55,296 nt of DNA from Acinetobacter bereziniae (GTDB lineage: Bacteria > Pseudomonadota > Gammaproteobacteria > Pseudomonadales > Moraxellaceae). Below, piece after piece: positions 2,794-15,796 of this stretch (position 1 is its first letter; every line of letters begins with the position of its first letter). The translations under genes were made by a program, and so were the position numbers. The stretch is from contig WNDP01000009.1 in the NCBI GenBank assembly GCA_009912575.1, positions 1 through 55,296 on the forward strand, in the 5' to 3' direction. The notes under the pieces are model-generated. The model had not been told where the DNA came from. It saw only the letters and a list, made by a program, of their open reading frames with translations, and ran no database searches.

Positions 2794-2852
2794 AATCAAT
2801 ATTACGTTTTTTAATAATCGTAATACTCAAGCAAAGAATGAGGATGACAAAT

Positions 2853-3797
2853 ATGGGTTATGTCGCAAAGGATATTGGTCAAAAGAACAAGCTGATCTTA
2901 AGCTTGTGTTCTTTTCTGATCCCTATATGTCTCTGGTGTGCTGTTAGTTATTTACCTTTTATTTGGCATCCACAAGTGCAAATTACCAATTCAGGAAGTG
3001 TTTCATATCTGCAAGTCGGAAGCCGTGTCGATAAAAATGTGTTCTATAGTGAGGCACAAAATGCTGTAGATCAAAATTCTGCACCACCACAAGGTATTTT
3101 GGTCAATCCAATTTACTTACCAGCTCCACATGAAGTTGCTAAAGCATTGGTGACTGCTTTTACCACGCCACCAGAACAACCTGATACGCCTTGGTTTCAT
3201 CAAAGTTTGTGGCACAGTATTAAAATTGTTTTTTCAGCTTTTCTGATTTCCTCAATTGTTGGTATCCCACTGGGAATTCTTTGTGGCTTCTCACAAAAAA
3301 TATCTCTACTCACTGAACCTTTTGTTGAATTCTTTCGCTATTTGCCTGCACCTGCATTCGGTGCCTTGGCTGTAGCGATTTTAGGGATTAATGATGCACC
3401 GAAAATTGCAATCATTGTCATTGGTACAATTTTTCAGCAAATTTTGATTATCGCTAACACCACACGCATGGTTGATCAAGGATTGATTGAAGCGGGTTAT
3501 ACCCTAGGAACCAATAAATTGAGAAGTCTGTTTCATGTCGTTATTCCTGCTGCATTTCCTGATATCTACCGAGACTTAAGGGTGCTTCTGGGTTGGGCAT
3601 GGACCTATTTAATCGTCTCTGAATTGATTGGAACAACCTCTGGCATCACTTGGTTTATCACTCAGCAAGCACGCTATCAAAACTTTGACAATGTATATGC
3701 AGCAATCTTAATTATTGGGGTGATCGGCTTAGTTTGTGATTGGGTGTTGATGAAGATGGGTGAGCGTATGTTCGCATGGAAAATAGGAGCAAAATAA
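2853..3797 (+). CDS. ABC transporter permease of the guanidine/urea carboxylase cluster
   Basis: Inner-membrane permease of the NitT/TauT (SsuC/NrtB-like) group, about 314 residues. It has a first membrane segment, then a periplasmic loop of about 90 residues (longer than usual for SsuC), then five more segments. The EAA-type cytoplasmic loop is near IEAGYTLGTNKLRSLFHVVIPAAFPDIY, which contacts the ATPase. Three in-frame ATGs (2838, 2844, 2853) are possible; AGGA at 2841-2844 favours 2853. It overlaps the ATPase gene by one base. The matching binding lipoprotein is at 7454-8476 on the other strand. Genes of this type accompany urea/guanidine carboxylase widely. The substrate is inferred to be guanidine or a guanidino compound. 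Confidence 0.85.
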   Translation: MGYVAKDIGQKNKLILSLCSFLIPICLWCAVSYLPFIWHPQVQITNSGSVSYLQVGSRVDKNVFYSEAQNAVDQNSAPPQGILVNPIYLPAPHEVAKALVTAFTTPPEQPDTPWFHQSLWHSIKIVFSAFLISSIVGIPLGILCGFSQKISLLTEPFVEFFRYLPAPAFGALAVAILGINDAPKIAIIVIGTIFQQILIIANTTRMVDQGLIEAGYTLGTNKLRSLFHVVIPAAFPDIYRDLRVLLGWAWTYLIVSELIGTTSGITWFITQQARYQNFDNVYAAILIIGVIGLVCDWVLMKMGERMFAWKIGAK

Positions 3798-4678
3798 TGA
3801 ATGATTCAACTTTTAACGCACATGAATATTTTCAAAAGATCTATGCACGTCCTGTCATTTTAGAAGCCAAACAACTCAGTCAAGTATTTAAACATGGCAA
3901 GACTGAACGAGTGGTGCTAAAGCAGCTTGATTTAAAAATCCATAAACGAGAATTTGTTTGTGTGATTGGTCCTTCTGGTTGTGGGAAATCAACCTTAAGC
4001 CGTGTGATTGCCGGTTTAGATCCTTATCACAGTGGCGAAGTCTTGGTCGATGGCGAGCGTATTACGGGCCCTAGTCCTGAACGAGGTATGGTGTTCCAAG
4101 GCTATACGCTATTTCCATGGAAAACAGTCAAAGAAAATGTCATGTTTGGCCCACGAATGAAAGGTATCAGCCAGATCTCTGCCGAATCCCATGCACGTGA
4201 ATGGATCAATATCATTGGTTTAGAAAAATATGAAAATCAATATCCTCATCAGTTATCAGGTGGAATGAAACAACGTGTTGCTATTGCACGTGCTTTGGTC
4301 AATGAACCTAAAATCTTATTGATGGATGAACCTTTTGGCGCATTAGACCCGTATACTCGCCAAAAGATGCAAAAACATTTGATGGATTTATGGCAAAACA
4401 TAGACATCACGATTATTTTTGTGACCCATGATATGGATGAAGCCATATTGTTGGCAGATCGTATTGTCGCACTCAAAGCTAATCCTGGTGAAATCAAAGA
4501 AATCATTGAAGTCGATTTACCTCGTCCACGCTCAACAGACTTAATTAACAGCTCTGCATTTAAGCAACTCAGAGCTCGCGTTGATCAGTTAGTGCATGCT
4601 CAAGAAGATGAACTTGATCCATCACTACAAAATTTACCGAAAATTCCACGTATGACACCAGTCAGTACGGATAAATAA
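3797..4678 (+). CDS. ABC transporter ATP-binding protein of the guanidine cluster
   Basis: A 293-residue ATPase that would energise the permease encoded just upstream. It has Walker A GPSGCGKST, the Q-loop (MVFQGYTLFPW), ABC signature LSGGMKQRVAIARAL, Walker B LLMDEPFGALD and the H-loop (FVTHDMDEA). It resembles SsuB/TauB/NrtD ATPases, with a C-terminal extension of about 40 residues that lacks a recognisable regulatory domain. The start at 3797 overlaps the permease stop (TAATG) and is preceded by AGGAG; an upstream in-frame ATG at 3776 lies inside the permease gene and is less likely. It is the last gene before the guanidine-II riboswitch. Confidence 0.88.
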   Translation: MNDSTFNAHEYFQKIYARPVILEAKQLSQVFKHGKTERVVLKQLDLKIHKREFVCVIGPSGCGKSTLSRVIAGLDPYHSGEVLVDGERITGPSPERGMVFQGYTLFPWKTVKENVMFGPRMKGISQISAESHAREWINIIGLEKYENQYPHQLSGGMKQRVAIARALVNEPKILLMDEPFGALDPYTRQKMQKHLMDLWQNIDITIIFVTHDMDEAILLADRIVALKANPGEIKEIIEVDLPRPRSTDLINSSAFKQLRARVDQLVHAQEDELDPSLQNLPKIPRMTPVSTDK

Positions 4679-4700
4679 ACCATAACCGCTTTCTTATCGC

Positions 4701-4745
4701 ATTTGGGACGACCCAAATAGCTTAGTTCTTTGTTGGACGACCAAC
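4701..4745 (+). promoter_or_regulatory. Guanidine-II (mini-ykkC) riboswitch
   Basis: Two small hairpins each carry the same ACGA loop: ATTTGGG-ACGA-CCCAAAT (4701-4718) and GTTGG-ACGA-CCAAC (4732-4745), joined by a 13-base linker. Paired stem-loops with ACGR loops closed by G-C pairs are the defining structure of the guanidine-II riboswitch, whose loops kiss when guanidine binds. The second hairpin ends 13 bases before the oxygenase ATG at 4759, so the switch would control translation by exposing the ribosome binding site. It sits inside the operon, between the ATPase and the oxygenase. Confidence 0.9.
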
Positions 4746-4758
4746 TTTGGTGATATTC

Positions 4759-5763
4759 ATGACTAATCGCTATGTTTTACCACTTTTGGATATTTCTTTA
4801 TTGTGTAGCGCTGATCGTAATGAACGCTTGAAAATCTCACATGCTTTAGATCAAGCTTGTAAAGATGTTGGTTTTCTTTATTTAAAAGGTGAACAATTTA
4901 AGCCTGAATTATTTGAAAAGCTCCATAAAACGGCGCAACAGTATTTTGCCCAAGATACAGCCTTAAAGATGCAGAATTATATCGGCCTATCGGAAAATCA
5001 CAGTGGTTATGTGCCGATTGGAGAAGAACGTTTTGTAGAAAATTCTTATGACCTCAAAGAAGCTTATGATGTGAATTATGATCATCTCAGTTTGGAAGAT
5101 CGACGATCTCTGGTAGGTCCAACACAATGGCCTGATGATCCTAGCTTTAAATTGCATGTTTCCGATTATTATCAACATATTAAAAAAATTGGGCAGCAAA
5201 TTTTTCAAAGTTTTGCCTTAGCATTGGACTTGGATGAGCATTATTTTGATGCGCATATTTCAAAAGCCCCCAGCCAACTTCGTTTGATACATTATCCATA
5301 TATTGCGGATATTCAGGATAAAGAAGGTATAGGTGCGCATACAGATTATGAATGTTTTACCTTACTTCTCCCGACTGCAGCCGGCTTACAAGTGCTCAAT
5401 AAAGATGGGCAATGGATAGATGTACCATTGCTTGAAAATACCTTGATTATGAACATTGGCGATATGATGGAGATTTTATCCAATGGACGTTATTTAGCCA
5501 CCAAACATCGTGTGAAGAAAGTGGCTGAGGAACGTTATTCTTTTCCATTCTTTTTCTCATGTGATTATGACTACATCATTCAGCCATTGATCAATCCTGA
5601 ATCTGCTCACTATGCCCCATTAAAAGGTGGGGAGCATTTATTTAATCAAACAGCGCAAACATTTCAATATCTCAAAGATAAAGTCGCCCGTGGTGAAATT
5701 CAACTTGAAAATGCCAAACCACTTTACTCCTTTGGTTTAAACCAAAACGAGGAGTCAAAATGA
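4759..5763 (+). CDS. 2-oxoglutarate/Fe(II)-dependent oxygenase, guanidine-riboswitch controlled
   Basis: A 334-residue member of the isopenicillin-N-synthase-like dioxygenases. The DIOX_N segment is in residues 5-120, with the typical VGFLYLKG and SGYVPIGEE motifs. The 2OG-FeII catalytic core has the iron ligands in IGAHTDYE and TKHRV and the co-substrate-binding RYSFPFF. The true substrate is unknown. Relatives of this broad family hydroxylate guanidino amino acids such as homoarginine or arginine and can release free guanidine, which makes a guanidino compound a reasonable guess here. The ATG at 4759 follows the guanidine-II riboswitch directly; a TTG at 4747 in the same frame is less likely. 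It overlaps the next gene by four bases (ATGA). Confidence 0.85.
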   Translation: MTNRYVLPLLDISLLCSADRNERLKISHALDQACKDVGFLYLKGEQFKPELFEKLHKTAQQYFAQDTALKMQNYIGLSENHSGYVPIGEERFVENSYDLKEAYDVNYDHLSLEDRRSLVGPTQWPDDPSFKLHVSDYYQHIKKIGQQIFQSFALALDLDEHYFDAHISKAPSQLRLIHYPYIADIQDKEGIGAHTDYECFTLLLPTAAGLQVLNKDGQWIDVPLLENTLIMNIGDMMEILSNGRYLATKHRVKKVAEERYSFPFFFSCDYDYIIQPLINPESAHYAPLKGGEHLFNQTAQTFQYLKDKVARGEIQLENAKPLYSFGLNQNEESK

Positions 5764-6488
5764 ATCTCATAACACTCTGTACTCAACTCAAAGTATCTGC
5801 TACGTCAACATGCCTACTCCCTGACTATTTATTGGGTGCTTTTCGCCGTAAAAGTATCAGCTTTGCCAATGGGCTCACTGACGAAACTACACTGGTCTAT
5901 TGGTTTCAGTCTAAATCATTCACCATCGATTTACGTTTAAAAAGCCAAAACACAACACCAGTTTTGGAGCGACAAGGCTGGGTTGGCAATACGCTGTGGG
6001 ATGAGCAGCAGCAACTACTTTCTTGGCAAATTACCAGTAATTATCAAAATCATGTTCAATGGCCTGAGCCTGCAAAACTCTATGCCATTGGCAATGCTAT
6101 TTTAGAATTTTCCCCGAGCCATGCTTATGTTGAAGACTGGCGTCAGCAAGCAAAACGTGGGCTTTATCTGGGTTTACGTTTATTTAAAATTGACAATATG
6201 GATTTAAATATAAGCTACCCTGCGGATGGTGGCTTAATTATTTGTGATCATTTTATTGCCTTTGCACGATCACGCCATCCTGAGATCCAACAACGTTTAG
6301 AAATAGAGAAATCTTTGACCGAAGCCTTTGCTCAGCAAGATTTCACTATCCAAGATATCCAAGATTACGAAGTATCGGTGAGTTTTGGACAGCAAATGAT
6401 TGATCTCAGTACCGTGACCGAGCAAGTTGGTACACACATGGAACTTGATCACTTTACTCAGTTGGATGACAACACATTGGTACAGTAA
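5760..6488 (+). CDS. Unknown guanidine-cluster protein, with in-frame stop and coding-like continuation
   Basis: A 242-residue soluble protein coupled to the oxygenase gene by an ATGA overlap and preceded by GAGGAG. I do not recognise a family. It is rich in beta-strand-like segments with aromatic motifs (TLVYWFQSKSFTIDLRL, GWVGNTLWDEQQQ) that look like a lipocalin- or cupin-type barrel, and it has no signal peptide. After the TAA at 6486 the same frame stays open for 52 more codons to a TAG at 6645, reading like protein (RFIQGQRCQLYFTIDTFDQD, then TASLAWFDQEHN). The natural protein may therefore be about 295 residues, with a nonsense change or read error at 6486. It is presumably needed with the oxygenase. 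Confidence 0.65.
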   Translation: MNLITLCTQLKVSATSTCLLPDYLLGAFRRKSISFANGLTDETTLVYWFQSKSFTIDLRLKSQNTTPVLERQGWVGNTLWDEQQQLLSWQITSNYQNHVQWPEPAKLYAIGNAILEFSPSHAYVEDWRQQAKRGLYLGLRLFKIDNMDLNISYPADGGLIICDHFIAFARSRHPEIQQRLEIEKSLTEAFAQQDFTIQDIQDYEVSVSFGQQMIDLSTVTEQVGTHMELDHFTQLDDNTLVQ

Positions 6489-6663
6489 CGCTTTATTCAA
6501 GGACAACGTTGCCAGTTATATTTCACCATTGATACTTTTGATCAAGATTTTTGTTTTTCCACAGAGACAGCAACATCAACTGCCAGCCTTGCTTGGTTTG
6601 ATCAGGAACACAACCACCTTTTCCATCATGCAAAATTAAGTGTCTAGGAAGCATATTTTAGCC

Positions 6664-6996
6664 ATGTCTTTTATCTATTTAATCATTGCGATTGTGGCAG
6701 AAGTCATTGCGACCTCTGCCATGAAAGCATCAGAAGGGTTTAGTCAGCTCTTTCCTTCGATCATCACCATCTGTGGCTATGCCGTGGCAATTTATTTCTT
6801 ATCCCTGACAATGAAAACCATTCCAGTCGGTATTACCTATGCCTTATGGTCAGGCGCTGGGATTATTTTGGTGTCTTTGGTTGGTTTTTTTTATTATAAA
6901 CAGCACTTGGATTTGGCTGCTGTTCTTGGGCTTTCACTGATGATTATTGGAATTTTAATTATTCATCTTTTTTCAAACAGTACAGAACTCACTTAA
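6664..6996 (+). CDS. Small multidrug resistance exporter, EmrE/Qac-like
   Basis: A 110-residue, four-helix SMR protein of the inner membrane. Glu13 in AIVAEVIATSAMK is the essential proton/substrate residue, and YALWSGAGIILVS contains the conserved third-helix Trp and the glycine motif. The segment EVIATSAMKASEGF resembles EmrE/Qac drug exporters more than Gdx (SugE) guanidinium exporters. Under guanidine-II control it is nevertheless expected to export guanidinium or a substituted guanidine. The ATG at 6664 with AGGAAG upstream gives the usual SMR length; a GTG start at 6640 is possible. It is the last gene of the unit, followed by a terminator. Confidence 0.85.
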   Translation: MSFIYLIIAIVAEVIATSAMKASEGFSQLFPSIITICGYAVAIYFLSLTMKTIPVGITYALWSGAGIILVSLVGFFYYKQHLDLAAVLGLSLMIIGILIIHLFSNSTELT

Positions 6997-7453: not shown

Positions 7454-8476
7454 TTATGGTAACTCTTGTAATAAGGTTGGATAAATCAAACCATCTACAT
7501 TTTGCTCAGTTTTATAGATGCCATTCTGTACATTGAATTTATTCACATGATATGACGAACCATATATCGAATCGAAACCATTAGCTTTGCTAAAGACTTT
7601 TTTATTGGCTGAAATATCCAGTAAATGTGTACCATTCACCATCGTTTCGTATTGTTTTGGATCGACACCTGAACGATTTGCCATAATTTTGACAGCATCT
7701 GCATGTGTAGCTGGATCATTGATGTATTTCACCGTTTTATCCCACACTTGAAGAACTTTTTTCCACTGCTCTTTGTGGGTCGTTAAATGACTCATATTGA
7801 CCGTCAATGTGTCATAGATTAAACCCGGTTTATCTTGCGATGTATAAATGATTTTTGATCCTGCAACGGCTTTTAATGCTTGACTGGCAACAGGTTGCCA
7901 AACTGCAATTGCTGAAATATCAGGACTTGAAAATACATGAGGTAATTGATTGGTTGCAGAATTCACCAATTTTATTTCATTGATTGGAATTTTTTGATCT
8001 GACGTCGCTGTTGCAAGCAGTAAATGATCCACTAGGCCCTTTTCAACACCTACCGATTTGCCTTTTAAATCCTGAATATGATTAATCCCATCTTTGGCAA
8101 TAATGACATCATTTCCAGCAGAATAATCTGTTGCCATAATCATCATGCCTTGCGTACCGCCTGAAGCAGTCACCAAATTATCTCCATTGGTGACAAATAC
8201 CGCATCCAATTGATTTGCTGAAAAAGCTGAAAGCGATGCGGAGTAATCAAACCATTTAAAATCAACATTTAATCCCGCTTCTTTTAACCACCCCTTTTCA
8301 ATCGCGACTTGCCATGCAACAAATCCCGGCCAATCACTATAACCAATGGTAATCGGTTGTGCGTTTGCTGTGGTTTGCTTATTTTCTTTGGCCTCTGGCA
8401 CTTTTGCTGTGTTGTCACAACCCGATATTAAAACCGCAGACAAAATGGATATAGATAAAAAAGATTTATGAATCAT
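7454..8476 (-). CDS. ABC substrate-binding lipoprotein of the guanidine cluster
   Basis: A 340-residue periplasmic binding protein of the NMT1/ThiY/SsuA-like type. The signal peptide ends in the lipobox LISGC (Cys20), so it is anchored in the inner membrane. The mature part begins after a charged linker with ITIGYSDWPGFVAWQVAIEK, the classic start of NitT/TauT-type binding proteins. It should feed the permease and ATPase encoded at 2853-4678 on the other strand, an unusual split of one transporter over two operons. The ATG overlaps the allophanate hydrolase stop by four bases. The ligand is inferred, not shown: guanidine or a guanidino compound. Confidence 0.87.
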   Translation of the reverse strand: MIHKSFLSISILSAVLISGCDNTAKVPEAKENKQTTANAQPITIGYSDWPGFVAWQVAIEKGWLKEAGLNVDFKWFDYSASLSAFSANQLDAVFVTNGDNLVTASGGTQGMMIMATDYSAGNDVIIAKDGINHIQDLKGKSVGVEKGLVDHLLLATATSDQKIPINEIKLVNSATNQLPHVFSSPDISAIAVWQPVASQALKAVAGSKIIYTSQDKPGLIYDTLTVNMSHLTTHKEQWKKVLQVWDKTVKYINDPATHADAVKIMANRSGVDPKQYETMVNGTHLLDISANKKVFSKANGFDSIYGSSYHVNKFNVQNGIYKTEQNVDGLIYPTLLQELP

Positions 8477-10281
8477 ATCGAAACTCCCCCAACGTTCTCA
8501 CAGTTAAATTTTGCATTTGATGGACTGAGTGACTTGATGTAGGCACGCCAACCACCAAAATGACTGATATCGACAGCTTCTTGAATCGCATGAGCTTCAC
8601 AAATAAAGCCTTTCACCCATGTCCCATCTTCAAGCTGTAGATTGCCAATGCCCAGTGGTGCAGGAACTTCTGCGACGATTGCCCCAAAATTCGCCAACGG
8701 AATATCCCAAACTTCAACTTCGATCGCAGTACCATCAACATCAAATTGCAATCCCGGTTTCGGTGGAACGGTATTTTTCAAAGCAAATAGCTTATAGCTT
8801 TTAGCCGTTCGGGTTTTTGCGAGCAATGTCGCTTGCCGGGTTGTCAATTGAAAATTCAAAGGCATCGCTGAGAGATGCGCACCGACAACAGCGAGCTTTA
8901 CCGAGTTTTGTGATTCAGTTTCAAAGCTTTTTTGATAACGATGTGATGAGGTGCCAAGAGTAAGTTCTGTAAGTGTTTGCCATTGTTGGGCAAATTTTGC
9001 CAAAGCTTGGTCATACCAAGCAGGTGCAATAAAAGTTACGCCACTAGGCAGGCCATCTGCACGAATAGCATTGGGTAAGGCAATTGCAGATAGATCAGCA
9101 AAATTTACAAAGTTGGTATACGCCCCCATATGTGAATTTTTATTGAGAGGGTCTGCTTCAACTTCACTGATCTGATAAATCGTCGGTGAAGTCGGTACCA
9201 TCAATGCATCATAGGCTTGTAGTTGAAGATTAATTTTTTGTGCTAATTCAGCCCGTTGATACTCAGCTTTAAATGTATCTGTAGCTTTAAACTGATCAGC
9301 CTGCGCAATGATTTCAGCAATCACTGGATGCGTTTGTTGCCGAGAGACTCGCGCTTCGACAGCAACCGTTCTCTCTGCAACCCAAGCGTCATTATAAAGT
9401 GCTCTCGCCAAAAGGTTAAAATCCGTAAAATCAATAGATTCAACCTCATATCCAAGTGCTTGAACACGTTCTACGGCAATTTTAAATGCTTTCTCGGATT
9501 CAATATCGCCATAAAACTCGAGTTGAGCAGGTATCGCAATTTTTCCTTTAGAAAATTGTGTTGCAACATTGGCAGGATGACTACGCGAATAAGCATCTGT
9601 TTTATCATTAGCTTGCATCAATGTTGCAACCAACCAAGCATCATCACTGGTCAGTGCAAAAATTGAAATCACATCCAGTGTTCTACACGCAGGCATCAAC
9701 CCTGTGGTTGAAAACCATCCCTTTGTAGGTTTCAATCCAACTATATTGTTATGACCTGCTGGAACTCGACCTGAACCTGCCGTATCTGTACCTAGACTAA
9801 AAGGTACAATTCCATTCGCTACAGCCACAGATGACCCAGAACTAGAACCACCACTGATATATTCTGGATTAAAGCTATTTTTTACTGCACCATACGGTGA
9901 ACGTACCCCGACTAAACCTGTTGCAAATTGATCTAAATTGGTTTTTCCAACAACGACTGCGCCTGCTTTTTTAAGCTTAGCAATAACAAAAGCATCTGTG
10001 TTTGCTAAATATTCAGCTTCTTTACATGCACCTGTTGTATGAAAACCAGTGACATCAATATTGTCTTTGACTGCAAATGGCACACCATAGAGGGGTAGAT
10101 CATCGCAATTTTGAGTTTTTAAATACTCAATTTGCATCTGTATTTGTGCTGAAGATGCGATTTCAATCCAAGCATGATCATCATTTTTTATGGTTTTAAC
10201 ATAGTCGATTAAACCATCAATATCGATTTGCTGATTTGCATACGCATTTTTCCAATCTTGGATCGTCCATAAGTCTTGCAT
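8473..10281 (-). CDS. atzF: Allophanate hydrolase
   Basis: A 602-residue amidase-signature enzyme that hydrolyses allophanate to ammonia and CO2, the last step of guanidine (or urea carboxylase) nitrogen release. The catalytic triad is visible: Lys about residue 72 (FAVKDNID), cis-Ser about 146 in ISGGSSSGSSVAVA and nucleophile Ser about 170 in GTDTAGSGRVPAG. Residues after about 470 form the C-terminal allophanate hydrolase domain (VVGAHLSAMPLNFQL, then IPLANFGAIVAEVPAPLGIG). AGGAG sits seven bases before the ATG at 10281; the ATG at 10287 is too close to it. It is in one operon with the regulator upstream and the binding lipoprotein downstream. Confidence 0.93.
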   Translation of the reverse strand: MQDLWTIQDWKNAYANQQIDIDGLIDYVKTIKNDDHAWIEIASSAQIQMQIEYLKTQNCDDLPLYGVPFAVKDNIDVTGFHTTGACKEAEYLANTDAFVIAKLKKAGAVVVGKTNLDQFATGLVGVRSPYGAVKNSFNPEYISGGSSSGSSVAVANGIVPFSLGTDTAGSGRVPAGHNNIVGLKPTKGWFSTTGLMPACRTLDVISIFALTSDDAWLVATLMQANDKTDAYSRSHPANVATQFSKGKIAIPAQLEFYGDIESEKAFKIAVERVQALGYEVESIDFTDFNLLARALYNDAWVAERTVAVEARVSRQQTHPVIAEIIAQADQFKATDTFKAEYQRAELAQKINLQLQAYDALMVPTSPTIYQISEVEADPLNKNSHMGAYTNFVNFADLSAIALPNAIRADGLPSGVTFIAPAWYDQALAKFAQQWQTLTELTLGTSSHRYQKSFETESQNSVKLAVVGAHLSAMPLNFQLTTRQATLLAKTRTAKSYKLFALKNTVPPKPGLQFDVDGTAIEVEVWDIPLANFGAIVAEVPAPLGIGNLQLEDGTWVKGFICEAHAIQEAVDISHFGGWRAYIKSLSPSNAKFNCENVGGVSI

Positions 10282-10296
10282 GACCATACTCCTGAT

Positions 10297-10731
10297 TTAA
10301 TCATTTTGTAGAATCGGAGGCATCACTGCATCCATAAGTTCTAAATGCCCTTTAATCACGCCTTTGAGTGCAATAAATTGCTGACTAATTTGCTTGAGCT
10401 CTGAGCTTGCACCTTGCATCAACATCACCTGTAAGATTTTTTGCTGATCAAGTTGAATATGTAGTGAACTGATCACTTGGGTTAAAAACTGTTGTTGTAA
10501 ATCAATTAGTTGATTTCTAAGTGGCATCTGCCCTGCATCATAAAGAATGGTTAATGTCCCCACCATCACTTCATTGGCTTGAACCTGTTCTGCAATCAAA
10601 TGTTTGTTGATCATGTCCACAATTGCTTGTGATCGGCTTTCATAGTGTTGATCAACAATTTTCTGGTCGAGGGCATTGAGAGTCGTTTCAGGTACAGTAA
10701 TACTGATCCGAGCCAACTTTTGTTTAGGCAC
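10297..10731 (-). CDS. NikR-like ribbon-helix-helix regulator lacking nickel ligands
   Basis: A 144-residue protein with the NikR layout. The ribbon-helix-helix DNA-binding domain is at 7-48 (ARISITVPETTLNALDQKIV, SRSQAIVDMIN) and an ACT-like C-terminal domain at about 55-135 (VGTLTILYD, SSLHIQLDQQKILQVML, KGVIKGHLELM). Aligned with E. coli NikR, only His87 is kept (His91 here). The positions of His76, His89 and Cys95 are Gln80, Gln93 and Ile99, so square-planar nickel binding is not expected. The ligand may instead be a pathway compound. AAGGA lies seven bases before a GTG at 10731, chosen as the start; an upstream TTG at 10809 would add an unlikely tail. It is probably the local regulator of the guanidine genes. 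Confidence 0.8.
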   Translation of the reverse strand: MPKQKLARISITVPETTLNALDQKIVDQHYESRSQAIVDMINKHLIAEQVQANEVMVGTLTILYDAGQMPLRNQLIDLQQQFLTQVISSLHIQLDQQKILQVMLMQGASSELKQISQQFIALKGVIKGHLELMDAVMPPILQND

Positions 10732-10735
10732 AGTG

Positions 10736-10861
10736 CTATCCTTTTGGTTTATGGACTGAGTGTGTTTGTTTAATATACAGACCAGCGCGTACACTGAATA
10801 ATTCGACAAAAAATGTTTTGAGCGGATGTACTTTTTTGTCTGCTGTTTTTACATGATTCAT
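10736..10861 (-). CDS. Possible small protein (41 residues) heading the regulator-atzF operon
   Basis: ATG at 10861 is preceded by AGGAG with seven-base spacing. The frame gives 41 residues (MNHVKTADKKVHPLKTFF..., rich in Lys and His) and stops four bases before the GTG of the NikR-like gene, which is the spacing of a translationally coupled leader or small gene. There is no known family, signal peptide or membrane helix. It may be a real small protein or a leader peptide. Support is the strong ribosome binding site and the tight junction. Confidence 0.45.
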   Translation of the reverse strand: MNHVKTADKKVHPLKTFFVELFSVRAGLYIKQTHSVHKPKG

Positions 10862-12190: not shown

Positions 12191-15100
12191 TTAAACCACT
12201 GGTGCTAAGGTAAACAACACCTGCCCTGTTTTAACTGTCTGCCCTTTTTCGATGGTAATAGTTTCAACTTTCATTCGCTCAGGCGCGATGATTGGAATTT
12301 CAATTTTCATGGCTTCGATCACTGCAAGGGTTGCACCTTCTTCCACAATGTCACCTGAAGCACATTCAATTTTCCAAATTGAACCGGGCATATGTGATTC
12401 AACTGCACACCCCCCTTGCGGGATAATGACGGCTTCTGCATCGTCTACAGCATCCAGACTTTCAGAAACATATTCTTGTAAACCAGCAGCATGCCAACGA
12501 CGACGTTCAGCTTCAAAATTGGTTTGTTGCGTGTGTTTAAATGCCTGAATGCTGTCTTGATTTTCGGCTAAGAAGTCATTGTATTGTTTAAGGTTGAGTA
12601 CGCCCTCTTCAATTCGGAGTTGCAAATGACCTGCTTTAAAATCTTCACGCATTTTCAGCAATTCTGACTCGGAAACTTCATAAAATTTCACCTGATCAAA
12701 AAAGCGCAATAACCATGGTTTACCCGCTTCAAAATTTGCGTTTTGACGATAACGACTCCACATTTGTGTAGTTCGACCAACAAACTGATACCCACCCGGA
12801 CCTTCCATTCCATACACACACATATAGGCACCGCCGATACCCACAGCACTTTCAGGTGTCCAAGTTCGAGCAGGGTTATATTTGGTCGTGACCAATCGCT
12901 GACGTGGGTCAAGTGGCGTGGCTACAGGCGCACCTAAATATACATCGCCTAAGCCCATCACCAAATAATGCGCACTATATACCACATCTTTCACTGCTTG
13001 CTTAGAAGCTAGACCATTAATACGACGGATAAACTCGATATTATCAGGACACCAAGGTGCATCTGGACGCACAATTTGGGTGTAGCGTTCAGTCGCTAAC
13101 TGCGCTTGTGAATCTTCCCAAGCCAATGGTAAATAAACTGTTCTTGAAGGAACTTGCATCTGATCAATATCAACGAGTTCAGCTTCAGCACTTTGTAATT
13201 TCTTTAACAATTCCAATTGATCAACTTGAATTGAATCAAAATGGATCTGTAAAGAACGAATACCTGGTGTGAGATCAATAATCCCTTGAATATTTTGATC
13301 TTTTACCCATTGCATCAAGGCATGAATACGGAATCGTAAATTTAAATCTAAAACCAGTTCACCATATTCAACCAATAAATAACTGTTTCCTGCGGGTCTA
13401 TAGCAGACACTTGGCAACTTGCCTTGCCCCTCTATATTCGCGAGTACAGCATTGCTTAAAGTTTCATGCTCAGGCTGAATCAGAGGATTGAAATCAACAG
13501 TGGTCGTGTCTGTAGCGATTAAACTTTGATGATATTTTTGGTCGAGACTTTTTGCCTGCACATAACCTACAGGTATAAATTTGACTTTATCTCCTGCCTT
13601 CAACTGACCAATTTTCCAAAGTTCAGAATGAATTACTACTGCTGGACATACAAATCCGCCTAAACTTGGGCCATCAGGTCCCAAGATAATTGGCATATCT
13701 CCAGTGAAGTCTATTGCACCAATTGCATAGGCGTTGTCATGAATATTGGAAGGATGTAAGCCAGCCTCACCACCGTCTTCACGTGCCCAATCTGGCTTTG
13801 GTCCAATCAAACGAACCCCTGTACGGCTGGAGTTATAATGAATTTCAAAGGTATTGGTAAAAAACTGATCAATGTCTTTTGTGGTAAAGAAATCAGGAGC
13901 ACCATGCGGACCATACATTACGGCGATTTCCCAAGTTCGGCTAAAGCTTGGAATTTGATCTTTGGCTAAACGCTTACTGTCTTCAGAACAATACTCGGTG
14001 ATTGGAAGCATATCCCCAATCAATAAATTACGACCCGCATGTCCACCAAATTGACCTAAGGTAAAGGTTGCTTTTGAACCTAAGTATTCTGGAACGTCAA
14101 ATCCGCCTTTAATCCCAATATAACTACGGCAACCTGTGCTAATCGTGCCACACTTTAAGACTTGAGATTTTTTAACATTGATGGTTTGCCACATCGGTAG
14201 AGCGATACCATCAAGTGTGGCAGCAATCTCTCCACCTGTAATGACAATTTGACTATCACAATGGAACTTTAAAGTTGGACCTTGTAGAGTGCATTCTAGT
14301 CCTGCTGTGTTGTATGGATTTGCTAAAAGTTGATTGGCAACATTTAAGCTTAAAGGGTCAATTGCACCTGAGGGTGGTACACCTACATCCCAGTACCCTA
14401 AACGACCTGTGATGTCTTGAATCGAAGTCTGAATACCTGATTGTAAAACTTCAATTTTTTGAGTTTTCCATGCAAAAGTATTTAAAAAGCGTGTGGTTTG
14501 ATTTCCTGATTGGAAAACTTCGCCTGCAATAATATTCTGCAAATACTCCAAATTGGTTTCAATACCCGCGATTTGAGTTACTGCAAGACTGGCTTGCATT
14601 GCGTGTATTGCTGAGTTTCGATCTGTTGCTGTGACAATAATTTTGGCCAGCATTGGATCATAAAATGAAGAAACATGAGAACCCGTTTCGACCCAAGTTT
14701 CGACACGCGCCTTCGAATCAAATTGCACATGCGTCAACAATCCAGCACTGGGCTGAAATTGCTTAATCGGGTCTTCAGCATATAAACGTACTTGGATCGA
14801 ATGACCTTTCGGGACTAATTTTTCTTGTGGAGCAGACCAGTCACCACTGGCTAAAGTCACCATCCATTCGACCAGATCAACACCATAAACTTGTTCAGTC
14901 ACCCCATGTTCGACTTGTAACCGTGTATTCACTTCCAAGAAATAGAATTGCTCTGTTTCTGTGTCCATGACAAATTCAACAGTTCCTGCCGAACGATAAT
15001 TCACCGATTGCATCAGTTGAATTGCAATTTTTTGAATGTATTCACGCTGTTCAGCATTTAAAAGAGGTGCTGGCGTTTCCTCGATGACTTTTTGGTTACG

Positions 15101-15796
15101 GCGTTGTACAGAACAATCACGCTCTCCCAAAGCCAATACCTGTCCTACACCATCACCAAAAATTTGTACTTCAATATGTCGAGCATGTTGCACAAACTTT
15201 TCTAAATACACACCTGCATCTTTAAAGTTTGCTTGAGCGAGATATGTGACTGTTTGATAGGCATCTCTGAGTTCAGCTTCATTCCAAACCAAACGCATCC
15301 CAATACCGCCACCACCAGCGGTGCTTTTCAGCATGACTGGATAACCGATCCGTGTAGCTTCAGTAATGGCTTCGTTTTCATTAGCCAGCAAAGCACTTCC
15401 TGGCAATAACGGGACATGGCTTTGAATTGCAAGTTCACGTGCAGTATGTTTTAAACCAAAATCCAGCATTTGACTGGATGTTGGGCCAATAAAAGCAATT
15501 CCCTGATTTTCGCAAAGATCACAAAACTCCGCATTTTCAGATAAAAATCCATATCCCGGATGAATTGCCTCAGCGCCAGTTTGTTTTGCAACTTCCAGTA
15601 TTTTTTCAATATTCAAATAACTCTGTTGCGCAGGCGCCGCACCAATACAAAATGCTTCATCTGCCAAGGTCACATGTAAAGAATCTTGATCGGCTTCTGA
15701 GTAAACAGCAACGGAAGCGATGCCTAATTTTTTCAGTGTACGTATGACACGACAAGCAATTGCGCCACGATTGGCAATGAGAACTTTCTTAAACAT
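12191..15796 (-). CDS. Guanidine carboxylase (annotated as urea carboxylase)
   Basis: A 1201-residue biotin enzyme that carboxylates its nitrogen substrate with ATP and bicarbonate. Domains: biotin carboxylase at about 1-450 (FKKVLIANRGAIACRVIR, glycine-rich TAGGGGIGMRLV, HVEVQ-type segment RHIEVQIFGDG); carboxyltransferase halves related to KipA/KipI at about 460-780 and 800-1020; biotin carrier domain at the C-terminus with the AMK motif (Lys about 1164 in AVIEAMKIEIP). Enzymes with the two DUF1989 neighbours and a guanidine-I riboswitch have been shown to prefer guanidine and produce carboxyguanidine, so guanidine carboxylase is the better name. The substrate is inferred from this context. 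GGAGG precedes the ATG, two bases after the upstream stop. Confidence 0.93.
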   Translation of the reverse strand: MFKKVLIANRGAIACRVIRTLKKLGIASVAVYSEADQDSLHVTLADEAFCIGAAPAQQSYLNIEKILEVAKQTGAEAIHPGYGFLSENAEFCDLCENQGIAFIGPTSSQMLDFGLKHTARELAIQSHVPLLPGSALLANENEAITEATRIGYPVMLKSTAGGGGIGMRLVWNEAELRDAYQTVTYLAQANFKDAGVYLEKFVQHARHIEVQIFGDGVGQVLALGERDCSVQRRNQKVIEETPAPLLNAEQREYIQKIAIQLMQSVNYRSAGTVEFVMDTETEQFYFLEVNTRLQVEHGVTEQVYGVDLVEWMVTLASGDWSAPQEKLVPKGHSIQVRLYAEDPIKQFQPSAGLLTHVQFDSKARVETWVETGSHVSSFYDPMLAKIIVTATDRNSAIHAMQASLAVTQIAGIETNLEYLQNIIAGEVFQSGNQTTRFLNTFAWKTQKIEVLQSGIQTSIQDITGRLGYWDVGVPPSGAIDPLSLNVANQLLANPYNTAGLECTLQGPTLKFHCDSQIVITGGEIAATLDGIALPMWQTINVKKSQVLKCGTISTGCRSYIGIKGGFDVPEYLGSKATFTLGQFGGHAGRNLLIGDMLPITEYCSEDSKRLAKDQIPSFSRTWEIAVMYGPHGAPDFFTTKDIDQFFTNTFEIHYNSSRTGVRLIGPKPDWAREDGGEAGLHPSNIHDNAYAIGAIDFTGDMPIILGPDGPSLGGFVCPAVVIHSELWKIGQLKAGDKVKFIPVGYVQAKSLDQKYHQSLIATDTTTVDFNPLIQPEHETLSNAVLANIEGQGKLPSVCYRPAGNSYLLVEYGELVLDLNLRFRIHALMQWVKDQNIQGIIDLTPGIRSLQIHFDSIQVDQLELLKKLQSAEAELVDIDQMQVPSRTVYLPLAWEDSQAQLATERYTQIVRPDAPWCPDNIEFIRRINGLASKQAVKDVVYSAHYLVMGLGDVYLGAPVATPLDPRQRLVTTKYNPARTWTPESAVGIGGAYMCVYGMEGPGGYQFVGRTTQMWSRYRQNANFEAGKPWLLRFFDQVKFYEVSESELLKMREDFKAGHLQLRIEEGVLNLKQYNDFLAENQDSIQAFKHTQQTNFEAERRRWHAAGLQEYVSESLDAVDDAEAVIIPQGGCAVESHMPGSIWKIECASGDIVEEGATLAVIEAMKIEIPIIAPERMKVETITIEKGQTVKTGQVLFTLAPVV

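Follow-up and report, generated by a model that had tools for sequence, protein, structure and literature searches.

The window analyzed here, the whole 55,296-nucleotide stretch of contig WNDP01000009.1 of Acinetobacter bereziniae (assembly GCA_009912575.1), makes up a complete contig of an assembly of 5.16 Mb in 335 contigs, and its nearest named relatives, judged from loci fetched with peptides and from an oxygenase tree, are Acinetobacter. Between positions 4700 and 6996 of the plus strand it carries a Guanidine-II type leader followed by three genes, which encode a 2-oxoglutarate (2OG)/Fe(II) oxygenase, the product of a second open reading frame (ORF2) whose start overlaps the oxygenase end in an ATGA, and a small multidrug resistance (SMR) exporter. 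The same gene order had been proposed in the original prediction, which was made from the letters alone. The core of the unit is of a known kind, that of the methylguanidine hydroxylase MgdH and its partner lyase MgdL, in a new arrangement and with an exporter of an unexpected subtype. Its sequence relationships make it very probable that the unit demethylates methylguanidine and thereby feeds neighboring guanidine-carboxylase genes. The features of the unit are as follows.

4700–4745, plus strand: Guanidine-II (mini-ykkC) type aptamer; RF01068 at 25.9 bits (gathering score 32), with covariation, conserved 5′ of mgdH
4749–4753, plus strand: GGTGA, presumed from the sequence to be the Shine-Dalgarno element of mgdH, 5 nt 5′ of the ATG
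4759–5763, plus strand: mgdH-like 2OG/Fe(II) oxygenase, 334 aa; PF14226 and PF03171, identity to V. boliviensis-type MgdH, and tree
5760–6488, plus strand: mgdL-like lyase (predicted), 242 aa, ended by an in-frame TAA; D57/R59 match catalytic D49/R51
6489–6647, plus strand: continuation of the mgdL frame past the stop, 52 codons and then TAG, corresponding to the C-terminal part of relatives
6664–6996, plus strand: SMR exporter, EmrE/Qac-like; PF00893, with EmrE and Qac model scores

MgdH and MgdL were described by Sinn et al. in 2025 as the methylguanidine hydroxylase and the N-(hydroxymethyl)guanidine lyase of the salt-loving bacterium Vreelandella boliviensis, for which both enzyme activities, growth on methylguanidine, and the ligand ranges of both riboswitches have been established (PMC12508155). 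As the reference for comparison, two V. boliviensis-type operons (L195 and L196) were used, which were recognized by their gene order, the presence of both riboswitches, and D49/R51 of MgdL; their family, presumably the Halomonadaceae, was picked because an ectoine-hydrolase family match exceeds the cut-off in three of its genomes. The window oxygenase matches PF14226 and PF03171 over their cut-offs and contains the HxD...H and R-x-S motifs, in which H194-x-D196...H250 and R259 are, as we take from the family motif, the iron and 2OG ligands. It is 48% identical to MgdH of the two operons over 333 and 331 aligned positions, and BLAST gave 312 and 313 bits for residues 6–326 and 7–326 of its 334. 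A tree of 70 oxygenases places the window protein with those partnered with MgdL, in a group of 45 rows supported at 100/97, and the group of 54 rows that also holds the Vreelandella type is supported at 100/100. The original prediction had regarded the oxygenase as uncharacterized and its partner as unknown, which no longer holds, since both have relatives that were assayed in 2025 (MgdH and MgdL, PMC12508155).

One alternative, modeled on the ethylene-forming enzyme or the plant homoarginine-6-hydroxylases, is that the substrate of the oxygenase is arginine, homoarginine, or agmatine, hydroxylated beside the guanidino nitrogen, and that the unstable product frees guanidine. The superfamily is the same, and the closest solved-structure sequence to the window oxygenase is 9ovh, named an ethylene/succinate-forming enzyme, at 153.6 bits; the window protein is, however, closer to MgdH of the V. 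boliviensis type by the scores and the identity given above, and mgdL adjoins its gene in the fetched loci, and this alternative therefore appears very improbable. A pathway acting on a guanidino compound, as first proposed, holds insofar as the oxygenase family releases guanidine from a substituted guanidine, but homoarginine and arginine are unlikely substrates and methylguanidine is the best-supported one.

The ORF2 protein is, as judged by profile comparison, a remote homolog of MgdL that keeps the catalytic Asp/Arg pair. No Pfam or NCBIfam match to it was found at E ≤ 0.001, and its MgdL profile matched none of the sequences of solved structures at E ≤ 1. When this profile was aligned with V. 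boliviensis-type MgdL by hhalign, the result was 95.0% with an E-value of 4e-8 over 111 columns, and D57/R59 were paired with D49/R51 and YVEDW with YVEHW. D57 and R59 are invariant over 36 aligned MgdL rows, and in L195 and L196 the Asp and Arg stand exactly at positions 49 and 51, as do the catalytic Asp49 and Arg51 of the published enzyme (PMC12508155). The assumption that the ORF2 protein is a dedicated partner of the oxygenase is supported at the sequence level. Another possibility is that a different small N-alkylguanidine, such as N,N-dimethyl- or ethylguanidine, is consumed by the same two-step mechanism. V. boliviensis MgdH also accepts N,N-dimethylguanidine (PMC12508155), and the sister oxygenases that are partnered with a propeller-like protein, as described below, suggest a diversified family. 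We nevertheless regard this possibility as improbable, because the partner in the window is of the MgdL type with its Asp/Arg kept, and because specificity for N-(hydroxymethyl)guanidine is reported for the V. boliviensis lyase, as is the lack of a response to dimethylguanidine for its Guanidine-II riboswitch (PMC12508155).

The leader consists of two hairpins, P1 at 4701–4718 and P2 at 4732–4745, each with an ACGA loop, which lie ahead of the oxygenase gene at exactly the bases originally predicted. The Rfam model of Guanidine-II (RF01068) matches at 4700–4744 with an E-value of 0.002 in 301 bases, and across the 5.16 Mb of the genome nothing but the leader (E 0.008) matches at E ≤ 1; the score says little by itself because the same search matches 7 of 14 control genomes at E ≤ 1, over the cut-off in 2. 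The fold of the leader was no better than those of shuffled sequences (z −1.43, with 18 of 200 shuffles equally good). The window contains a single pair of the form GGACGACC-N10-30-GGACGACC, and none of 100 shuffles contains any. In 33 aligned leaders, standard pairing holds in 96.0% of the cells at 12 pairs, and both sides are changed in 23 cells, which belong to 4 of the 12 pairs; neither these two values nor the covariation score was reached in 500 shuffles, while the counts at the level of pairs were unremarkable (4 doubly changed pairs, 91/500 shuffles; 11 further pair types, 227/500). The clearest covariation is a U-A/C-G swap in P2, with 24 and 9 rows. Co-occurrence of such a leader with the genes across genomes, which the original prediction had suggested as a check, was found as well: the 200 nt 5′ of mgdH contain two GGACGRCY motifs in all 41 named Acinetobacter loci and in 13 of the 14 other loci, the sole exception being a Novosphingobium plasmid. 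This count leaves aside L131, whose contig starts inside mgdH, and the tree labels mark L099 as lacking Guanidine-II as its start codon was set too far upstream, while its leader has both hairpins. The tandem hairpins, their covariation, and their conservation 5′ of mgdH support the assignment of the leader to the Guanidine-II type, with which it shares the two ACGR-loop hairpins, the GGACGACC core, and the place just 5′ of the start codon; it differs in scoring under the Rfam cut-off and in its A+T-rich outer stem pairs. A gathering score is the threshold set by the Rfam curators and not part of the riboswitch mechanism. All seven related leaders searched (L102, L115, L121, L122, L123, L136, and L139) missed that of RF01068, and the mgdH leader of G095, in the family sample, passed it with 32.2 bits; Guanidine-II is probably under-annotated in the genus Acinetobacter. 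In the window fold, the 3′ strand of P2 sequesters the Shine-Dalgarno element (ACCA with UGGU), and this was considered as a switching mechanism and rejected as a general one for the 33 leaders. The expected pairing is clear only in the window, L103, L102, L105, and L118 and is low in the other leaders, and forcing the aptamer hairpins altered access to the Shine-Dalgarno element little in most of the 33.

ORF2 ends at an in-frame TAA at 6486–6488, and the same frame remains open for 52 more codons to a TAG at 6645–6647, a feature that was absent from the original prediction. The MgdL proteins of the named relatives are 279–331 aa long in all 54 callable loci (L129, one of the 55, was not callable), versus 242 aa in the window; the early stop is therefore peculiar to the window sequence among those seen, and the similarity match of MgdL runs across it. 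It is possible, if somewhat doubtful, that the unit is decaying in this strain, with the stop at codon 243 inactivating MgdL and leaving the oxygenase and a slow spontaneous decay of its product, given that none of the 54 relatives stops so early. The V. boliviensis-type MgdL proteins are, however, only 225 and 238 aa long, near the length of the 242-aa product, which moreover keeps D57/R59 and the YVEDWR motif, and for these reasons the shortened protein may work. The frames of the remaining genes listed at the locus are all open, and a base-calling error may lie behind the stop, the assembly being one of 335 contigs. Even without the lyase, N-(hydroxymethyl)guanidine decays, with a half-life of more than 1 h (PMC12508155).

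The exporter belongs to the SMR family (PF00893), as originally proposed, but its best sequence match is not to Gdx, the usual guanidinium-exporter subtype. On its model scores it is EmrE/Qac-like: EmrE gives 101.7 bits versus 63.9 for the 6wk5-type SMR, which we take to be Gdx-Clo, and the Qac-pB8 model gives 129 bits versus 64.1 for SugE. It lies below the curated cut-offs of the NCBIfam Qac models, for which reason it has no named equivalog, and it differs from the EmrE/Qac subtype also in following a guanidine riboswitch, a place usually taken by Gdx. Five further SMRs from such operons score 120.8–140.9 bits for the Qac models, and these five and the window protein reach at most 64.1 bits for SugE. 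An SMR more than 45% identical to that of the window lies 3′ of mgdL in 33 of the 41 named Acinetobacter loci and in none of the 14 others. Guanidine riboswitches are classically associated with SMR genes (PMC7695847, PMC9574504), and the window protein might be an ordinary guanidinium exporter that guards against guanidine; the lone SMRs of the genus that stand behind Guanidine-II leaders are indeed SugE/Gdx-like (105.2–116.9 bits for five of the eight such loci fetched). The operon SMRs (the window and five relatives) fall at 120–141 bits for Qac against the low SugE scores, and EmrE shows current with methylguanidinium and none with guanidinium (PMC7695847), and a guardian against guanidine is thus rather unlikely. 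By analogy, the EmrE-like exporter could vent the substrate while the product is spared because EmrE moves methylguanidinium but not guanidinium, and it may export methylguanidinium without loss of guanidine, which suggests a function that the Qac subtype may have in nature. The titles and abstracts listed from an open-access library yielded neither an EmrE-type SMR tied to methylguanidine metabolism nor the unit in Acinetobacter, and passages from PMC12186494 and PMC9574504 likewise describe neither.

Further genes of the locus lie on both sides of the unit.

2838–3797, plus strand: ABC (ATP-binding cassette) transporter permease, NitT/TauT type; PF00528, 5′ of mgdH in 41/41 named Acinetobacter loci
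3776–4678, plus strand: ABC transporter ATPase; PF00005, 5′ of mgdH in the same 41/41 loci
7454–8476, minus strand: ABC substrate-binding protein, NMT1/SsuA-like; PF09084, with TIGR03427 (putative urea ABC binding protein) below the cut-off
8473–10287, minus strand: allophanate hydrolase AtzF; TIGR02713 at 765.7 bits, over the cut-off
10297–10755, minus strand: NikR-like regulator, start codon not settled; PF08753, present in most related loci
12191–15796, minus strand: urea/guanidine carboxylase (Gca); TIGR02712 at 1842.1 bits
15799–16467, minus strand: UAAP2/carboxyguanidine deiminase subunit (CgdB); homology map, matching UAAP2 of an annotated plasmid copy
16481–17236, minus strand: UAAP1/carboxyguanidine deiminase subunit (CgdA); homology map, matching UAAP1 of an annotated plasmid copy
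17267–17369, minus strand: Guanidine-I riboswitch 5′ of cgdA-cgdB-gca; RF00442 at 81.1 bits, gathering score 63

The Guanidine-I riboswitch, which runs from 17369 to 17267 and was not part of the original prediction, exceeds the gathering score clearly and was also found 5′ of cgdA in all seven relatives searched, which were picked as their fetched stretch reaches cgdA. From this riboswitch and the CgdAB neighbors we infer that Gca acts on guanidine rather than urea. In 28 of 47 mgdH-mgdL rows gca lies within the fetched stretch, and the linkage of the unit to guanidine genes in other genomes, whose absence would have counted against the original prediction, is supported at the sequence level. 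No further guanidine riboswitch 5′ of the permease gene was matched by Rfam. Import of the parent compound by the NitT/TauT-type transporter, which the original prediction had suggested, is plausible given the constant position of its permease and ATPase genes, and the transporter is a probable importer of guanidine/methylguanidine.

In V. boliviensis the pathway is encoded in a single operon with Guanidine-I at the start and Guanidine-II ahead of gca (PMC12508155). L195 and L196 show the corresponding order of Guanidine-I, binding protein, permease, ATPase, cgdA, cgdB, Guanidine-II, gca, mgdH, mgdL, and atzF (in L196 with about 6 kb of other genes between mgdL and atzF), with 84.9 and 83.1 bits for Guanidine-I and 42.6 and 37.9 bits for Guanidine-II. 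The two systems share the oxygenase gene followed by the lyase gene, the Asp-x-Arg of MgdL, one riboswitch of each class, the ABC transporter genes, cgdA/B, gca, and atzF. In the window, however, Guanidine-II lies directly 5′ of mgdH rather than of gca, Guanidine-I heads separate carboxylase genes on the opposite strand, and there are additional genes for the EmrE-like SMR and the NikR-like protein; MgdL is also longer in the relatives of the window than in the V. boliviensis type, and it is cut near the latter's length in the window itself. Placement of Guanidine-II directly 5′ of mgdH is the common arrangement in the fetched loci, including those of Pseudomonas, Gilvimarinus, Colwellia, Psychromonas, and Psychrobacter. 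The published Guanidine-I binds guanidine and not methylguanidine, while Guanidine-II binds both and does not respond to dimethylguanidine (PMC12508155). If these ligand ranges carry over, the demethylase unit would sense its own substrate, and the carboxylase genes would sense theirs, which is the product of the demethylase. With such a two-unit layout, the purpose of having two guanidine riboswitches in one pathway becomes testable.

What the sequences themselves show, namely the order of the genes, their homologies, the catalytic residues kept, a leader that is conserved and covaries, and the layout with two riboswitches, allows the following scheme to be proposed. Using O2 and 2-oxoglutarate, MgdH (4759–5763) would hydroxylate methylguanidine at its methyl group to give N-(hydroxymethyl)guanidine, the breakup of which into guanidine and formaldehyde would be sped by MgdL (5760–6488). 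Guanidine would then pass to Gca, CgdAB, and AtzF encoded on the opposite strand and be converted into ammonia and CO2, usable as a nitrogen source. The Guanidine-II leader would switch the unit on with methylguanidine or guanidine, and the separate Guanidine-I would switch on the carboxylase genes with guanidine, while the ABC transporter probably imports the compounds and the EmrE-like SMR probably vents excess methylguanidinium. This scheme presumes, by analogy, that the Acinetobacter proteins and RNAs act as those of V. boliviensis, that the transport roles are as assigned, and that the shortened MgdL works or is dispensable.

Several observations weigh against methylguanidine demethylation by the unit. 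The similarity to MgdL is remote, and direct BLAST gave only a 25-residue match (E 7e-5); the stop at codon 243 removes 52 codons that match sequence present in 54/54 callable relatives; and support is weak (84/61) for the branch on which Vreelandella MgdH goes with the oxygenases partnered by MgdL and not with those partnered by the propeller-like protein. The leader scores under the gathering score of RF01068, no switch between the hairpins and the Shine-Dalgarno element is general over the 33 leaders, and gca is not in the fetched stretch for 19 of the 47 mgdH-mgdL rows, several of these stretches ending early.

Within the family sample, mgdL (E ≤ 1e-3) was found in 21 of 199 genomes and mgdH (E ≤ 1e-100, a threshold chosen after a gap between 1e-103 and 1e-94 had appeared) in the same 21, while oxygenases at E ≤ 1e-20 were found in 34 of the 199. 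The named loci were fetched via conserved peptides of mgdL, and more distant relatives are therefore under-represented. The findings extend the methylguanidine pathway reported in 2025 to 41 named Acinetobacter loci and to further gammaproteobacteria. The genera named in the available text of PMC12508155 are Vreelandella and Salinisphaera, and the word Acinetobacter is absent from that text, while the 216 MgdL homologs of its supplement may include Acinetobacter proteins.

A protein of about 300 aa, propeller-like in its matches, was found in 4 of the 199 family genomes, each time beside a sister oxygenase. The sister oxygenases form one clade (100/100), are about 44–47% identical to the window oxygenase, and occur without mgdL except in A. 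proteolyticus, where both kinds stand side by side. The loci concerned are L028:10930–12939, which equals L140:11310–13319 (A. proteolyticus NIPH 809), L073:6626–8596, L077:6405–8455, and L078:8042–11031. The two-motif leader precedes three of the four sister oxygenases but not that of L078, in which a gene for a zinc alcohol dehydrogenase lies between the oxygenase and its propeller-like partner. The propeller-like protein matches DUF6923 over the cut-off in 3/4 and the Vgb-lyase family below the cut-off in 4/4, and the solved structures that its profile matches bear the names surface layer protein, YncE beta-propeller, and designed Pizza proteins; outside the family, none of the 390 order genomes searched gave a match to it at E ≤ 1e-25, in a sample that included no positive control. 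PAL is a beta-propeller. Like MgdL, PAL cleaves a hydroxylated intermediate made by an oxygenase, while it has no sequence homology to MgdL (PMC12508155). By this analogy it is an attractive idea that the propeller protein is a hemiaminal lyase for another alkylguanidine, which would make the sister loci a testable second solution to hemiaminal cleavage. One possibility, which we put forward only tentatively, is that all these loci are versions of a modular cassette for N-alkylguanidine dealkylation, which would combine a Guanidine-II leader and a 2OG oxygenase with a hemiaminal lyase that can be exchanged (MgdL or the unrelated beta-propeller) and with an EmrE-type SMR that exports the methylated substrate and keeps guanidine in the cell. 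If so, there would be a natural metabolic substrate, under riboswitch control, for the "multidrug" EmrE/Qac subtype.

Some further loci deviate from these arrangements. An mgdH-like gene at L076:7840–9012 (G011, minus strand) has two Guanidine-II motifs 5′ of it and adjoins a gene for a substrate-binding protein, and neither mgdL nor a propeller-like gene lies beside it. A third kind of pair, consisting of an oxygenase and an MgdL-like protein, was seen in six genomes taken as Halomonadaceae (L178:6744–12589 and L190–L194), and it possibly dealkylates another compound. In L178 this pair has neither the GGACGACC motif nor gca nearby and adjoins, by eye, genes for a PhyH-type dioxygenase and a polyamine-type ABC transporter. 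The NikR-like regulator with its NikR_C nickel-binding domain (PF08753) recurs in the guanidine locus of most Acinetobacter relatives, although the carboxylase route is not known to require nickel. On plasmid Mpl of the alphaproteobacterium Novosphingobium sp. PP1Y (L164, NC_015583.1), an mgdH-mgdL pair occurs with gca in the same stretch and without the Guanidine-II motif pair 5′ of it, and its oxygenase stands on a long branch among Acinetobacter sequences in the tree. In Acinetobacter sp. NCu2D-2 (L165, NZ_CP015595.1), the guanidine/methylguanidine locus is carried on a 310-kb plasmid typed as mobilizable, where it adjoins a transposase gene of the IS200/IS605 family.

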